From positions 1 through 21,072 of IMG/VR virus record IMGVR_UViG_3300035691_000021: DNA of 21,072 bases. One strand, 5' to 3'. The notes beneath the pieces were generated by a model that was given only the letters and a program-made list of their open reading frames with translations, did not search any database and had not been told where the DNA came from. The position numbers and the translations under genes were made by a program. Positions within the stretch are counted from its first letter, which is position 1; each line of letters opens with the position of its first letter. This DNA is from a virus. This document shows, in pieces, positions 2,482 to 8,674 of the stretch.

Positions 2482-2949
2482 TTGTTCAACCCTGACAACC
2501 CGTTCGCCGCTCCCGCGGTGACCTCCTCCGCGTCCTGTTCCGCACCGGCCGGCCTGTCGGTGTGGGTGGCCGGCCTGCCCAAGCCACAGGGCAGCAAGAC
2601 CTACCTCGGCCGCGGTCGGATGCGCGAGTCCAGCAAGGGCCTGCCGTCGTGGCGCGCGGATGTGCGCGCGGCGCTGCTGGCCACCGGCGTCCGAGTGCCC
2701 GGCGCGGTGTCAGCGGGGTTGGAGTTCGTCATGCCGCGCCCCCAGCGCGCTCGGCCCGGGCAGCCGGCCGACCGGATTCCGGATCTCGACAAGCTCACCA
2801 GGGGAGTGCTCGACGCGATGACCTCCGCCGGTGTGATCGAGGACGACGCGCGGGTGGTCAACTTCCACCGGCTGCACAAGCGCCTGGCCGAGCCCGGCGA
2901 ACCGACCGGCTGCCGCATCAGCGTGCGGAGGTGGGCGGCGTGCAGCTAG
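2482..2949 (+). CDS. RusA-type Holliday junction resolvase
   Basis: A 155-residue protein with the RusA signature. G-L-P-K-P-Q-G-S-K-T opens the fold, and P-D-L-D-K-L-x3-V-L-D-A-M (D101, D103) is followed by G-V-I-E-D-D-A-R-V (D121/D122). These match the metal-binding aspartates of E. coli RusA (D70, D72, D91). The catalytic Lys76 position, four residues after the second Asp, is Arg107 here. The start is a TTG at 2482 with AGGA 9 bases upstream; an in-frame TGA at 2476-2478 rules out a longer protein. RusA enzymes cleave four-way junctions, and in phages they debranch DNA before packaging. The N terminus reads N-P-D-N-P-F-A and sits ahead of the domain. The gene overlaps the polymerase gene by 10 bases. 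Confidence 0.88.
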   Translation: MFNPDNPFAAPAVTSSASCSAPAGLSVWVAGLPKPQGSKTYLGRGRMRESSKGLPSWRADVRAALLATGVRVPGAVSAGLEFVMPRPQRARPGQPADRIPDLDKLTRGVLDAMTSAGVIEDDARVVNFHRLHKRLAEPGEPTGCRISVRRWAACS

Positions 2950-5069
2950 CCCGTTACGAGGTAGGCGGTTGGCCGGACCGGTCGGCCGAGCTGCGAGTCG
3001 CGCGCACCGTGGCGGACCTGGCCGAGCTCGACGCGTGGCTGGCCGAACGTGCCGAGCGGCCGCTGGGGCTGGACCTGGAGACCAACGCGGCCGATCCGTG
3101 GCACCGCGGCTATCGGACGCGGTGCGTGCAGATCGCCGACGTGGACTGCTCCTGGGCGGTGCCGATCACCCCGGACAACGGCGCGTGGCTGGCACACGAT
3201 GTCTCGCGGATGATCCGCCGGCACCCGCTGTTTGTGGCGCACTTCGCCGAGGCCGATATCCGGTTCGCTTCGCGCGGACTACCGGACTCGCCGATCCGGC
3301 TGTACGAGCCGACCCCGCACGTCGTCGACCTGCAGGTGGCGTTGGCGATCTATGACCCACGCACCGTCACGACGGCGAACAAGGCTGAGCGGATCGACCC
3401 GCGAATCCCGCGCAAGAAGGGCCTCAAGGAGACCACGACGCGGCTGCTCACCCCAACCCTGCAGGCCGCCGAGACCGCGCTGCACGCCCGATTCCGCGAG
3501 CTAGCCCCGACCGGGTGGCGCACGCCGGCCAAGAGTCGACAGTGGGGATTCGCCCACATCCCCGACGACGACCCGACCTACCTGCTCTACGCCGCACTCG
3601 ACCCGCTGTGCACCATCCGGCTGTGGCACCTGCTACTGGGTGAGATCGGCAAGCGCGGCCAGCTGGGCAGGCTGCGCGCCGCGCTGGTCGAGCAGTGGAT
3701 GATGGACGGTGCCACCTTCGCCGGCCTGCAGGTCGACGGCCCCTACGCGCGCTGGCTGGACACCCAGCTGGCCGACGTGGTGGACAAACTCACCGGCTAC
3801 CTCGCGCAGTTCGACGTGCCGCCCAGCGGGCAAGGGCCAGCCGTCGGGCGCGCGCTCGCCGAGCTCGGGGTCGAGCCGGTGAAGGTCAACGACAACGGCG
3901 CGGTCAGCTGGGACCGCGCCGCGCTGACCATGCTGATCGAGCAGCTGGAGCAACAGGCAGCTTCGTCGCCGTCGGGCTCCGGTGTGCCGGGCAGGGCGCT
4001 GCAGCTGGTCGGACCGGCGCACCAGCAGCAGGCCCACCAGCGCGCCCGCGCGCGGGGTCTCGCGCAGGCGGTGCTCGACGTGCGCCGGGCCGGCAAGTTT
4101 CGCTCGGCCTACGTGGCGCCGATGCTGCGCGCGGTCGACGCGGGCGACGGCGCAATGCACTGCGGTGTGCGCGCCCTGGGCACGATCACCAGCCGGATGA
4201 CCCACTACGGCACCGAGTCCGCCGGGCCGCTGGGGCAGTTGCCCAAGCGCGACACCCGCATCCGCGCCGCGGTGCGCTCCCGCCGCGGCCAGGTGCTGGT
4301 GTCCGCCGACTACCGCCAGGCCGAGCCGCACGTGATGGCCGCGCTGTGCGGGGACGAGGTGATGCTGGCCGATCTGCTTGCCGGCGACATCAACGCCGCG
4401 ATCGCCACCATGGTCTACGGCGACATCAACGACGGCGGCGCCTACGACAAGACCCAGGGCAAGACCGCCGGCACACCCTCCTACGCGATGCGCCAGTCCG
4501 CAAAGTTCGGATGGCTGGCCTGGTGCTACTCGTGCTCGCCGCGCAAACTCGCCGCGCTGCTCGGCCGGCCGCTGGGGGAGGGTGAGGCGATCATCGAGCG
4601 GTGGCGCGGCCGTTACCGCCGTTTCGCCGCCTGGCAGGACGAGGTCAACAAGCTCGCCGTGGTGCCGCTGGACTCCGGGTGGCGGGTGCCGCTGTGGGAC
4701 CGCTGCTGGGTCGATGACGACGGCGCGCTGCGGCTGCGCTACCGCTACGGCGCACCGGTGCCCAGTCGACTCGGACCCAACGCGGCCACCCAGGGCGGCC
4801 AACGCGACCTGCTCGCGGTGTCCATGCACCGGCTCAACCACGCCGGCTGGTCCTGGGCACTGCGCTTCGCGCTGCATGACGAGCTGCTGCTCGAAGTGCC
4901 CGCGCCGATGGCCGAACAGGCCCGCGCCGACCTCGAGGCGGCGATGACGGTCACCTACCGCGGCGTCACCATCGGCTGCGAGGCCACGATCGAGGGCCGC
5001 ACGTGGCTCGCGCAGCCGACCGAGTTCGACCACGCCACGCTGACCGCTCTGGACGAGGAGGACGCATGA
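2940..5069 (+). CDS. polA-like: Family A DNA polymerase (Pol I-like, exonuclease plus polymerase)
   Basis: A 709-residue replicative polymerase. The GTG at 2940 is preferred because GGAGGTG lies at 2927-2933 with good spacing; the frame is open back to 2562, but that part only shadows rusA. The N-terminal 3'-5' exonuclease shows D45-x-E47 (motif I), a probable motif II near H-F-A-E-A-D, and Y217-x3-D221 (motif III). The polymerase domain shows motif A S-A-D457-Y-R-Q-A-E, O-helix motif B R518-x3-K522-x3-L526-x3-Y530, and motif C H646-D647-E648. The 5' nuclease domain of bacterial Pol I is absent, as in phage replicative polymerases. The residue equivalent to E. coli Phe762 is Leu526. It overlaps RusA upstream and the primase-helicase downstream (ATGA), suggesting translational coupling. 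Confidence 0.93.
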   Translation: MQLARYEVGGWPDRSAELRVARTVADLAELDAWLAERAERPLGLDLETNAADPWHRGYRTRCVQIADVDCSWAVPITPDNGAWLAHDVSRMIRRHPLFVAHFAEADIRFASRGLPDSPIRLYEPTPHVVDLQVALAIYDPRTVTTANKAERIDPRIPRKKGLKETTTRLLTPTLQAAETALHARFRELAPTGWRTPAKSRQWGFAHIPDDDPTYLLYAALDPLCTIRLWHLLLGEIGKRGQLGRLRAALVEQWMMDGATFAGLQVDGPYARWLDTQLADVVDKLTGYLAQFDVPPSGQGPAVGRALAELGVEPVKVNDNGAVSWDRAALTMLIEQLEQQAASSPSGSGVPGRALQLVGPAHQQQAHQRARARGLAQAVLDVRRAGKFRSAYVAPMLRAVDAGDGAMHCGVRALGTITSRMTHYGTESAGPLGQLPKRDTRIRAAVRSRRGQVLVSADYRQAEPHVMAALCGDEVMLADLLAGDINAAIATMVYGDINDGGAYDKTQGKTAGTPSYAMRQSAKFGWLAWCYSCSPRKLAALLGRPLGEGEAIIERWRGRYRRFAAWQDEVNKLAVVPLDSGWRVPLWDRCWVDDDGALRLRYRYGAPVPSRLGPNAATQGGQRDLLAVSMHRLNHAGWSWALRFALHDELLLEVPAPMAEQARADLEAAMTVTYRGVTIGCEATIEGRTWLAQPTEFDHATLTALDEEDA

Positions 5070-7084
5070 ACGCCCCGTCCAGCACCATCACACCCGAACA
5101 GCAGCGCGCCCTCGACATCGCCCGCGATCTCGTGCGGGTCGGCGTGCCGCTGTTCGTCGCCCCGCCGGACCCGAGCAAGCCCACCGGGTTCGCGCTGCCT
5201 GGCCGGTGGCAGACCGCCGAGCCGGCGCTGTCCACGGTGGATGCCTGGCAGCCCGGCTGGGCGCTGGGCATGGTCACCGGCGTCAAGCTGGACCTGGTCG
5301 ACATCGATCCGCGCAACGGCGGCGACGCCAGCCTGCTCGGGCTCGACGGCGTCGCCCTGGCCTTGGCCGCCACCCCCTCGGGCGGCGAGCACTACTTCGT
5401 CGCGCCGATCGGGGTGGAATCCCGCGACGGCGTCTATCCCGGCGTCGACCTCAAGTCAGGCAACGGCGACCGCTCCGGACGCGGATTCGCGTTCATCGCC
5501 CCCACGGTCAAGCCGTCCAAAGTGGATGGACAACCACGAGCATACGAGTGGATCGTGCGGCCGGTCGCCGGCAGCATCTGCGACACCGCCAACTACGTCT
5601 CCACCCACGGCGTGCACGGTCCGTTGGCCGTGCTGCGCGACCGCGTCACCGAGCTGCGCGCCGCGGCCGGCCGACCTGATCTCGCCGCCGGCCCGCGTAC
5701 CGTTGCCCGCTCGGTCGCCGCGCGCGAATGGAACCAGGCCCTCACACGTCTGGTCGACGACATCCGGCACTGGAATACCCACGGCTGGGGTGGCGAGGCG
5801 CACGCCGGGCTGCTCGCCGCCAGCACCCATCTCGCTCGCCTCGCGCCTGAGCACGCCGAGCAGGCCTTCCTGCAGGCATTCGCGGCCGCCGGCGCCGAAC
5901 CCGACGAGGACGACCTGCGCAAGCTCGCCACCGCGTTGGAACGGGCCGTGCCCGACCGGGTGGTCGACGACGCGGTGCTGCCCGTGCAAGACCGCTTCTG
6001 GCTCGGCGGCGAGTTCGCCGGGAGTGAACTCGGCCCAAAAGGTGAGGGCGCCCCTCCCGCGCCCGACCCGCCGCCGGCCGGCACCTTCGACTTCGTCACC
6101 CCCGAGCGTGTGCGCAACCGTCAGCCGCCCCCACAGGCCACCTACGGCACGTTCGGCGGAACGGTGCCGGTGTTCTACGGCGAAGGCGTGCACTGGCTGC
6201 AAGGCGAGAGCGAGAGCGGCAAGTCCTGGGTCGCGCTCGCGCACGCCCTGGAGGTGATGCGCGCCGGCCGGCCCGCCCTGTTCGTCGACTACGAGGACAC
6301 CGAGCACACCGTGCTGGAGCGTCTGGCGCAGCTCGGCGCGACCGACGAGGAGTTCGGTCGCCTGGTCTACGTCGCCGCGGTCGACATCGCTTACCAACAC
6401 ATCCGCGACCACGTCGTCACGGCCGTGGACCGCTGCTACGGCATCGCCGTCATCGACGGCGTCACCACCGCCCTGCAGACCGCCGGCCTGAGCGGCCGCG
6501 ACGAGCAGGAACTCACCCAGTGGACCAACGACCTGCCCCGCCGGGTGGCCTCCGCCCAGGTCGTCGACCACGTCGTCAAGGCACTGGACGACCGCCGCGG
6601 CATGGCCATCGGCACCCAGGCCAAAAAGAGCGTGGTCACCGGCACCGCGTTCGAGGTCGTCTGCACCGAGAAGTTCGGGCGTGGTTCCGCGGGCACCATC
6701 GAGCTGTATCTCCAGAAGGACAAACGCGGCGGCGTCCGCGCGCATCTGCCCAAGGGATTGCGGCTGCGATTCGCCAGCGACCCCGATGACGGCCACGTCG
6801 AACTCATCACCGCCGCAGTCGCCCGCCAACACAACCCCGACGCATTCTTCGGCAATGACCCGATAGACATTCGCGCACAAGCATTGCTCGAACGACTCCG
6901 CGCCCACGAGGCCGCCGGCTGGCGCCCGCCCGCCAACCTCAGCGTCCGCGAACTGGTGCGCGTGTTGCGCGATGAATTGAATGAACGCGGCGCAAATGAG
7001 GAATTCCGGCGGGCCGCTCACCTCTTCAAGGCCGAGAAGGGCCAGCCCGTCAACCTCGGTTCAGACCACGACAGGGAGTACTGA
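5066..7084 (+). CDS. Primase-polymerase fused to RepA/RecA-like helicase
   Basis: A 672-residue fusion that probably primes and unwinds phage DNA. The N-terminal half matches bifunctional primase-polymerase (Prim-Pol, AEP superfamily): V-D79-I-D81 metal-binding pair, then S-G-G-E-H109-Y-F and D-L-K-S-G-N. The second half is a RecA-like ATPase of the RepA/AAA_25 type, with Walker A G380-E-S-E-S-G-K-S387, an acidic F-V-D-Y-E-D strand, and a Walker B-like A-V-I-D-G. The last 60-70 residues form a helical tail that may bind DNA or partners. The start is the ATG at 5066 overlapping the polymerase stop; the frame open to 5003 only shadows the polymerase. With the upstream polymerase it supplies most core replisome activities. 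The candidate origin repeats begin 17 bases after its stop. Confidence 0.9.
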   Translation: MNAPSSTITPEQQRALDIARDLVRVGVPLFVAPPDPSKPTGFALPGRWQTAEPALSTVDAWQPGWALGMVTGVKLDLVDIDPRNGGDASLLGLDGVALALAATPSGGEHYFVAPIGVESRDGVYPGVDLKSGNGDRSGRGFAFIAPTVKPSKVDGQPRAYEWIVRPVAGSICDTANYVSTHGVHGPLAVLRDRVTELRAAAGRPDLAAGPRTVARSVAAREWNQALTRLVDDIRHWNTHGWGGEAHAGLLAASTHLARLAPEHAEQAFLQAFAAAGAEPDEDDLRKLATALERAVPDRVVDDAVLPVQDRFWLGGEFAGSELGPKGEGAPPAPDPPPAGTFDFVTPERVRNRQPPPQATYGTFGGTVPVFYGEGVHWLQGESESGKSWVALAHALEVMRAGRPALFVDYEDTEHTVLERLAQLGATDEEFGRLVYVAAVDIAYQHIRDHVVTAVDRCYGIAVIDGVTTALQTAGLSGRDEQELTQWTNDLPRRVASAQVVDHVVKALDDRRGMAIGTQAKKSVVTGTAFEVVCTEKFGRGSAGTIELYLQKDKRGGVRAHLPKGLRLRFASDPDDGHVELITAAVARQHNPDAFFGNDPIDIRAQALLERLRAHEAAGWRPPANLSVRELVRVLRDELNERGANEEFRRAAHLFKAEKGQPVNLGSDHDREY

Positions 7085-7086
7085 AA

Positions 7087-7563
7087 ATGTCCGGAATGCC
7101 CGTGCCCCAAGATCACGGCACGCTTCGGCACGCTTCGGCACACACCGTGCCCCAAGATCACGGCACGCTTCGGCACGTTTTGCAGATCAGACGAAAAATA
7201 GCAGGTAAGGAACTTGCAGAACGTGCCCCAAGATCACGGCACACTTCGGCACACCACTTCACGAGGCTAGGCCGGCCTGGTAGTTACCCCCGAAGGGGGT
7301 ACCAGGTCGAGCCCTGGGCCACGGCCTCTTGGCGACGGCGAGCCGGCGTGGTTCTCTCGGCCTGGGAGCTGGTGGCGCTCGCATCGGGTAGGGTTCCGCC
7401 GATCACGACGGTGCTGCGCCTGCACCCAGCGCTCGGAATAGCGGCCACCTGGTGGCTGGGGATGCATGTGCTTCATTCGAATGGCTCGACAAACACAAAG
7501 CAATTGTCGGTCAATTCAATCGATGATCTCAGTCGGTCAGCAAATACGGGTGGTCCGCGATGA
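7087..7563 (+). CDS. Putative small membrane protein; N-terminal half made of DNA repeats
   Basis: A 158-codon frame with ATG 7087 and a GGGAG ribosome site 8 bases upstream, two bases after the primase-helicase stop. The first 60 residues are encoded by the 31-bp repeats and look unlike a conserved protein. The C-terminal half looks real: a hydrophobic, Trp-containing stretch with S-A-W-E-L-V-A-L-A-S-G-R-V-P-P-I-T-T, then W-W-L-G-M-H-V-L, resembling small actinophage membrane proteins. An alternative GTG start at 7348 would leave 71 residues and place repeats and hairpin in an untranslated region, but it has only a weak ribosome site. The 3' end is locally AT-richer (about 48% G+C by my count over 7471-7560). 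Function unknown; the start is uncertain. Confidence 0.5.
   Translation: MSGMPVPQDHGTLRHASAHTVPQDHGTLRHVLQIRRKIAGKELAERAPRSRHTSAHHFTRLGRPGSYPRRGYQVEPWATASWRRRAGVVLSAWELVALASGRVPPITTVLRLHPALGIAATWWLGMHVLHSNGSTNTKQLSVNSIDDLSRSANTGGPR
7101..7252 (+). repeat. Three 31-bp direct repeats flanking an AT-rich patch (candidate origin/iterons)
   Basis: Copies lie at 7101-7131, 7146-7176 and 7222-7252. Copies 1 and 2 are identical; copy 3 differs at one base. Each contains CGTGCC, 10 bases, then GGCAC, so a GTGCC/GGCAC inverted repeat, followed by a further GGCAC one helical turn (10 bp) on. Copy 1 is extended by another GGCAC at 7137-7141. Between copies 2 and 3 is an AT-rich stretch (7177-7221, about 40% G+C by count) in an otherwise GC-rich genome. 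The offset from copy 2 to copy 3 is 76 bases, so copy 3 lies in a different reading frame and conservation is at the DNA level. The layout resembles iterons beside an unwinding element, or operator sites. Origin function is inferred. Confidence 0.6.
7276..7306 (+). other. GAA-loop hairpin, possible terminator or origin structure
   Basis: TACCCCC (7285-7291) and GGGGGTA (7295-7301) pair around a three-base GAA loop. An outer CCTGG (7276-7280) pairs with CCAGG (7302-7306), leaving a 4-base TAGT bulge. A C-GAA-G loop is known to make very stable DNA mini-hairpins. No T-run follows. It lies 24 bases after the last 31-bp repeat, so it may belong to the same DNA element or end transcription of the replication operon. 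Confidence 0.55.
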
Positions 7564-7814
7564 ACGACACTACACGCGACCAGTCGGCCGAATTGATCGT
7601 CAATACCCAGTCGTGCCCCGAGGGTTTCCATTGGATTGGTCAATCGTTCTGTACCTGTGACAGGTGCGGACTTCCTGCCTGGGAGCATGCCGGGGAAGCG
7701 ACCGTCCCGCGCGATAGCGGGCCGTTCGACAACGCGCCGTTGGTGCTTCGTCCGTGGCAGCCAGGTGAGGCAGAGGCGATTCGCCGGCGATGGGCCAGAG
7801 GCGGTGATAAGTGA
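7560..7814 (+). CDS. Small Zn-ribbon-like phage protein
   Basis: An 84-residue protein whose ATG overlaps the previous stop (ATGA), with GGTGG upstream. It contains F-C-T-C-D-R-C-G-L-P-A-W-E-H: closely spaced cysteines followed by W-E-H, as in small zinc-binding proteins common in actinophages. The C terminus is rich in Trp, Pro and Arg. No enzyme motif is seen and the function is unknown. Local G+C is lower at its 5' end than in the operon as a whole. Confidence 0.65.
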   Translation: MNDTTRDQSAELIVNTQSCPEGFHWIGQSFCTCDRCGLPAWEHAGEATVPRDSGPFDNAPLVLRPWQPGEAEAIRRRWARGGDK

Positions 7815-8674
7815 TGACAGCTGTCCTCACCCATCTGGAGCTCTCACCCGTCGGATGTGTGCTCGGTTGCGTGTGTGCGACCACTGGTCAGCCGTGGCCG
7901 GCGGCGGACTACCAGCTGGCCTGCGAGCGCTGCGCTGATCGGCTGCGCGAGCTGTTGGCCAGCATCCAGCAGGCCGTCGAGCTGCTCGCCGACCCTGAAT
8001 GTCTGTTGCCGACCAGCGGCACGGCACGTGGCACCCACGGGTTCGGGCCGCACTCGCCGGCCGTCGATGCCAAGCTGGCACATCTGGACGTGCGTACCGA
8101 GTGGACTCCGGAGGCTGGCTTCGGGGCGCTCGCCGCGATCGAGTCGTGGGCTCGGATGCTACGCGAGGAAACCCAGTCGGCCCCGCCGTCTGGTCGGGCG
8201 ACGATCGGCCGGGAGCTGGGCACGATCCGATTCCATTGGCCGGTGGTGCTGCGCTCGCCGTGGCTGGACGAGTTCGCCGGCGAGATGCGGCAGGTGTGGG
8301 CACAGCTGCAGCGCACACATGGCTGGCTCGAGCCGGTGGTGCGGGTCGGGGCCTGCCCGACCGAGCTCGTCGGGCCGACCGTGGACGGCTCGCCGCTGGT
8401 GTGCGGCGCCCCGCTGCGGGTGCGGCCTGGCGCGGGGGAGATCGCCTGCCAGCGGTGTGGGGACGTGCGCTCCCGGCCGCGCTGGTCGGAGCTCGCCGAC
8501 CCGTGGACGGACTATGCCGAGCTGCACGAGGCGCTGGGGGTCGCCGTCGGCACGCTGTGGCGGTGGTGCAGCGAGGATCGATGGCGCACGTCGGGGACAC
8601 GCTCACGCAGGCTGGTGGCCCGCGCTGATGCGCTGGCCTCATTCCAGCGACGCAGAGGAGGATCGGCGGCATGA
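7811..8674 (+). CDS. Zn-binding protein with C-terminal helix-turn-helix; putative regulator
   Basis: A 287-residue protein. GTG 7811 overlaps the previous stop, and AGAGGCGG lies about 7 bases upstream; ATG 7814 is one codon later and equally possible. The N terminus has a cysteine cluster (C16, C20, C22, C38, C41). A second cluster (C182, C198, C213, C216, the last two as C-x2-C) looks like a zinc ribbon. The C terminus contains E-A-L-G-V-A-V-G-T-L-W-R-W followed by a basic tail, typical of a helix-turn-helix with a recognition helix. Two zinc sites plus a DNA-binding end suggest a transcription-associated or DNA-binding role, but the family is not named here. The position before the late promoter region makes a regulator of late genes possible; this is inference. 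Confidence 0.7.
   Translation: MMTAVLTHLELSPVGCVLGCVCATTGQPWPAADYQLACERCADRLRELLASIQQAVELLADPECLLPTSGTARGTHGFGPHSPAVDAKLAHLDVRTEWTPEAGFGALAAIESWARMLREETQSAPPSGRATIGRELGTIRFHWPVVLRSPWLDEFAGEMRQVWAQLQRTHGWLEPVVRVGACPTELVGPTVDGSPLVCGAPLRVRPGAGEIACQRCGDVRSRPRWSELADPWTDYAELHEALGVAVGTLWRWCSEDRWRTSGTRSRRLVARADALASFQRRRGGSAA

Follow-up and report, generated by a model that had tools for sequence, protein, structure and literature searches.

Directly behind the primase-helicase gene of an uncultivated virus lies an array of short DNA boxes that we interpret, with a probability of about 0.77, as an iteron-type phage replication origin that would be recognized by the primase-helicase itself, through its C-terminal domain. 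The repeat array is a real feature of the window (by which we mean the whole stretch analyzed, a linear IMG/VR virus record of 21,072 bp). An earlier note, made from these letters alone, had offered an iteron origin with an unwinding element or an operator cluster as options. The comparative evidence favored the origin, since arrays were found at the same place in close relatives and behind RepA-type helicase genes in general, their boxes covary with the C-terminal domain, and DnaA-box-like sequences occur in some relatives. The operator option did not gain similar support and we regard it as unlikely.

The GC content of the window, a fragment of metagenomic origin that has no near kin, is 62-74% (500-bp windows), and the cultured phages nearest to it are mostly Streptomyces and Microbacterium phages, so its host is probably an actinobacterium. 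The primase-helicase carries a Prim-Pol primase domain (PF09250, Pfam E 5.2e-6, above the curated cut-off) and a helicase that is RepA-like by profile: the family profile matched the RSF1010 RepA structure 1g8y with an E of 4.6e-9, and the profile of a second helicase type (type B, see below) matched the same structure with 2.9e-9. AlphaFold modeled the C-terminal part as three helices at a pLDDT of about 85, and a comparison of this domain with PDB folds returned only weak GntR winged-helix and ribosomal small-subunit matches; the full-length model was too weak for a fold search. Small genes follow the primase-helicase, and terminase and portal genes extend from 10852 onwards, where TerL starts. 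The repeats occupy the gap between the helicase stop codon (ending at 7084) and the likely next start at 7348, that is, 7085-7347. A program-listed ORF at 7087-7563 spans them, but its first half is probably not a gene. No RNA family was found in the window with Rfam. Tandem 9-bp units (CAACACGGT) were also observed at 568-603, within an exonuclease-like ORF.

Table 1. Coordinates of genes and array elements in the window.
Feature	Position	Strand	Remarks
DNA polymerase A gene	2562..5069	+	upstream of the primase-helicase gene
Primase-helicase gene	5003..7084	+	Prim-Pol aa 42-187; RepA/AAA_25 RecA-fold helicase ~aa 394-524; C-terminal domain ~aa 620-680 (Pfam and profile)
C-terminal three-helix domain, candidate box reader	6860..7036	+	AlphaFold and covariation with box sequence
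Repeat 1	7101..7131	+	31 bp; GTGCC-10-GGCAC core, then GGCAC boxes at 10 bp
AAGATC	7109..7114, also 7154-7159 and 7230-7235	+	common to 7/8 family arrays
Additional in-phase GGCAC box	7137..7141	+	10 bp past the last box of repeat 1
Repeat 2	7146..7176	+	identical to repeat 1
Imperfect inverted repeat GGCACGTTTTGCAG / CTTGCAGAACGTGCC around the AT-richer spacer	7172..7227	.	fold and sequence
AT-richer spacer, candidate unwinding stretch	7185..7224	.	40 bp
GCAGGTAA	7201..7208	+	1 mismatch to GCAGGTCA, which is present in 7/8 family arrays
Repeat 3	7222..7252	+	1 mismatch
Hairpin CCTGGT..ACCCCC-GAA-GGGGGT..ACCAGG	7276..7306	.	CCCCCGAAGGGGG core found again in the array of relative L122
Small ORF 3' of the array, probable next gene	7348..7563	+	without family match

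The sequence confirmed the three 31-bp direct repeats (CGTGCCCCAAGATCACGGCACGCTTCGGCAC, two identical copies and one with a single mismatch) that had been noticed behind the gene. They begin 17 bp past its stop codon, are spaced by 45 and 76 bp, and their register reaches 36 bp at 97% and 86%. Ten GGCAC half-sites (7102-, 7117+, 7127+, 7137+, 7147-, 7162+, 7172+, 7223-, 7238+, 7248+) follow a layout of an inverted pair 15 bp apart and then direct boxes at 10 bp each, in agreement with the inverted GTGCC/GGCAC half-sites and boxes one helical turn apart described earlier. All three copies of the full 20-bp core in the window fall in the array and there are zero elsewhere in it; GTGCC-N9-11-GGCAC was observed four times against an expectation of 0.4, and a 6-mer density scan of 521 windows ranked the array first (z 9.0, next best elsewhere 5.2). 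The AT-rich patch between the repeats exists and its enrichment is modest (55-60% AT versus roughly 20-45% in the surroundings). The C-GAA-G hairpin behind the repeats is likewise present, and the enrichment of hairpin stems over control windows was mixed across the family. The earlier note had also placed the repeats in different reading frames; this holds for repeat 3, which is shifted, but repeats 1 and 2 share a frame (45 = 3 x 15), a point made immaterial by the intergenic position of the stretch. GC skew, proposed as a check, changes sign locally at the array (98-100th percentile for 1-2 kb flanks), but nothing consistent was seen among relatives. No DnaA box was found in the array of the window.

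Next we consider the close relatives, which were retrieved by protein searches for the whole layout, except for L122, which was found through its helicase half. The repeat sequence of the window was absent from them, and the exact 20-mer GTGCCCCAAGATCACGGCAC had zero matches in the other viral contigs searched, but an array of the same architecture was found in the same place. Specifically, all relatives with the Prim-Pol plus RepA-type helicase architecture carry a dense box array there, with a different box in each relative: GGCCGC in L004, CTCAACG in L006, GGGACACA in L007, CGGCACAC in L008, AACCCC in L009, CGGCAA in L018 and GAGACC in L122, versus GGCAC in the window. About 220 bp separate the gene from the array in L007, with a short coding-like stretch in between. 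Across eight arrays (the window, L004, L006-L009, L122 and the Streptomyces phage Dagobah), two elements are preserved despite the changing boxes: GCAGGTCA in seven of the eight (the window carries GCAGGTAA instead) and CAAGATC, also in seven. In 200 simulated sets, no 8-mer was common to more than 5 arrays and no 7-mer to more than 6. DnaA-box-like sequences are present in the arrays of L009 and of the Microbacterium phages Leaf and Hendrix, which would fit an origin; compared with control windows, most DnaA-box variants showed little or no enrichment, and the variant TTTTCCACA some excess. Several relatives, L007 and L008 among them, carry a small MerR/HTH_17-like gene after the array (8258-8608 and onwards in L008), followed by an HNH endonuclease-like gene. 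Prim-Pol relatives with a D5-type helicase (L019-L023) had no array directly behind the gene, and some of these loci showed other 6-mer peaks.

To quantify the association, the helicase parts of type A (window-like) and type B (L008-like) were used as queries, which yielded 160 loci, and an array was called when a k-mer count against first-order Markov sequences exceeded a z of 5 with at least five copies. Arrays were detected at 95 of the 155 scorable gene ends of RepA-type helicases in viral contigs (43/77 for type A and 52/78 for type B), a figure that is not a count of independent events because some loci are near-duplicates; about 60 gene ends lacked an array by the threshold used. Among other gene ends in the same loci, which served as control, 1 of 68 was positive. 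The 95 positive arrays had 63 different top 6-mers, and same-strand box spacing over 91 arrays peaked at 10-11 bp, which suggests that identical protein subunits line up along one side of the helix.

The variation of the boxes follows that of one part of the helicase. In partial Mantel tests on dereplicated sets, box similarity was correlated with C-terminal domain similarity in type A (n 37, r 0.27, p 0.0007, with core and next-ORF similarity removed) and in type B (n 41, r 0.36, a value reached by 0 of 3000 permutations). The partial correlations with the ATPase core were 0.04 (A) and -0.04 (B), and those with the next ORF -0.07 (p 0.95, A) and 0.06 (p 0.05, B). L007 and L008 share 95% identity over the Prim-Pol half and 85% over the HTH gene behind the array, but no more than 48% over the helicase core and 45% over the C-terminal domain; core, C-terminal domain and array differ with sharp borders, and the helicase half appears to have been exchanged together with its array. 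Among about 117 proteins, the best match to the C-terminal domain of the window was that of L008 (43% over 37 aa), which is also its best box match, with the same GGCAC box, even though the cores of the two helicases belong to different types (26%). The cross-type correlation across all A x B pairs was weak (r 0.085), and the pair of window and L008 ranked top on both measures. The boxes are apparently read by the C-terminal domain of each adjacent helicase. Linkage alone should couple the array to both of its neighbors, so the one-sided coupling argues against it; since the C-terminal domain is the nearer neighbor of the array, physical linkage could still account for part of the covariation.

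The same comparisons bear on other possible functions of the array. On the one hand, boxes that bind a repressor or the helicase itself, and so control the next genes or the replication operon, would explain the position of the array between two genes on the same strand, its inverted half-sites and the small MerR/HTH_17-like gene that adjoins it in several relatives, and immunity operators, too, typically change their box specificity fast. On the other hand, box similarity does not track the downstream ORF (the HTH proteins of L007 and L008 are 85% identical and their boxes are different), no recognizable HTH gene was found behind the array of the window, and a scan of 6900-7700 limited to sigma-70-like promoters found none. 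Binding by a terminase or a ParB-like protein, with the array as a packaging start (cos/pac) or as a partition site, is very unlikely: an HNH-like gene lies within about 1 kb after the array in several relatives, as read from sequence, and TerL lies downstream in the window, but the box tracks the helicase C-terminal domain and not the downstream ORF, and there were no ParA/ParB-like matches among the ORFs scanned. Slippage can create local tandem duplications, but a non-functional repeat expansion without a trans-acting reader is scarcely credible given the same array position in distantly related genomes, the helical spacing and mixed orientation of boxes, the diversity of top 6-mers over the 95 arrays, and the seven CGGGAC boxes that six Dhillonviruses keep while their spacers diverge.

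For the origin, we propose that the C-terminal domains of primase-helicase subunits would dock on the GGCAC boxes and that the subunits, the boxes being in helical phase, could line up along one side of the DNA. The AT-richer spacer would then serve as the loading site of the helicase ring, which would unwind it, after which the Prim-Pol half would prime synthesis. The array, its position, its recurrence across the class and the covariation of box and C-terminal domain were computed, and from these we infer binding, loading, unwinding and priming. Such a protein would be a self-contained initiator, performing alone the jobs of RSF1010 RepC (iteron binding), RepA (helicase) and RepB' (primase).

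The origin oriV of the IncQ plasmid RSF1010 is similar in having a RepA-type helicase, several direct repeats with a 20-bp core, an AT-richer stretch and a nearby hairpin. It differs in that here the primase, helicase and proposed box reader are one polypeptide, the primase is of the Prim-Pol type and the replicon is a tailed phage. A separate RepC-like protein had no match among the main ORFs scanned in the window, several of which are without family match. The helicase of the satellite phage P4 alpha protein belongs to SF3. As described in PMC4234260, this protein is a primase-helicase too, and it binds the origin repeats with a DNA-binding domain of its own, as we propose for the window, but its primase is of the Toprim type, as opposed to Prim-Pol in the window, and the boxes differ. 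ORF904 of the Sulfolobus plasmid pRN1 also fuses a Prim-Pol-type primase/polymerase to a helicase; its C-terminal DNA-binding domain is a winged helix, a fold that the three-helix domain of the window weakly resembles, and conserved flanks surround a sequence-divergent center in the pRN1 origin (PMC4234260), which is putatively located directly 3' of the Prim-Pol replication gene (PMC4234260, PMC3869888). In contrast to the RepA/AAA_25 helicase and iterons of the window, pRN1 combines an SF3 helicase with a 100-bp stem-loop without iterons. The same task is carried out by three proteins in RSF1010, by one in P4 and, as proposed, by one in pRN1 (PMC4234260). Finally, 'Region B' of phage SO-1 (NC_013600) and its equivalents in other Dhillonvirus genomes consist of direct, inverted and palindromic repeats right after the replicative helicase-primase gene, with GCGGGACA boxes; the N-terminal part of the helicase and the box differ from those of the window.

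The principle is therefore already known from these plasmid and satellite-phage precedents, and the interest lies in the class, with its recurring layout, hypervariable boxes and variable reading domain. Our data lean towards a general rule: in RepA-type helicases from phages of widely different bacteria, the C-terminal reading domain would diverge fast and be matched to a hypervariable iteron array right 3' of the helicase gene, the two forming a modular origin-initiator code, which may give each phage its own origin specificity and be moved by recombination as the helicase (or its tail) plus the array. We found no description of this array class in the openly accessible papers searched. To our knowledge, most phages lack a mapped origin. 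Should the rule hold, sequence alone could be enough to locate the origin in many phages that have RepA-type helicases. Paired C-terminal domains and boxes would then also be a natural set for learning how initiator specificity changes, and could tell whether phages in the same cell are mutually exclusive at the origin, like incompatible plasmids.

Among cultivated phages, the same layout was observed in Dagobah, the Microcystis phage MinS1, Hendrix and Leaf, the Alteromonas phage PB15 and the E. coli phage bob. No array was found behind the helicase gene of E. coli Bas73 and Salmonella SETP7, and the more distant RepA-like helicases of Gordonia, Mycobacterium, Nocardia, Corynebacterium and Caulobacter phages showed no clear gene-end array; a weak gene-end peak (z 4.5) was seen in Puppers, one of the phages with these more distant helicases. 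Among the six Dhillonviruses, bob alone departs from a constant C-terminal domain. Its helicase-primase gene has a 3'-terminal tandem duplication (L213, 3958-4112) that changes the frame of this domain relative to the five others, either as a sequencing error or as a real change, and the GCGGGACA array of bob is intact.

Several individual arrays have features of their own. The array of Dagobah (L030, 4050-4164) enters the 3' end of the helicase gene, such that the last residues of the protein are box-encoded (EPVGEPVGEPVADLLEPVGEPVADLHEPV). Leaf (L036, 4182-4588) and Hendrix (L034, 4185-4553) have intergenic arrays behind the primase/polymerase gene, with the DnaA-box-like sequences TTATCCACA or TTGTCCACA. 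In the Sodalis phage SO-1 (L217, 2466-2945) the annotated 'region B' repeats lie directly behind the helicase-primase gene, and a similar region A is found elsewhere in the genome. The Streptomyces phage KimJongPhill (L035, 561-880) has a CAGAACG x8 array upstream of the gene rather than behind it, in a 750-bp gap three genes before the primase/helicase ends. MinS1 (L033, 2353-4300) encodes a RepA-type helicase fused to a DnaB N-terminal domain and followed by a GGACGA/CGTCCC array, which overlaps two small annotated ORFs that are maybe spurious. This phage also encodes an Lsr2 family protein, which is typical of actinobacteria and odd given its cyanobacterial host.
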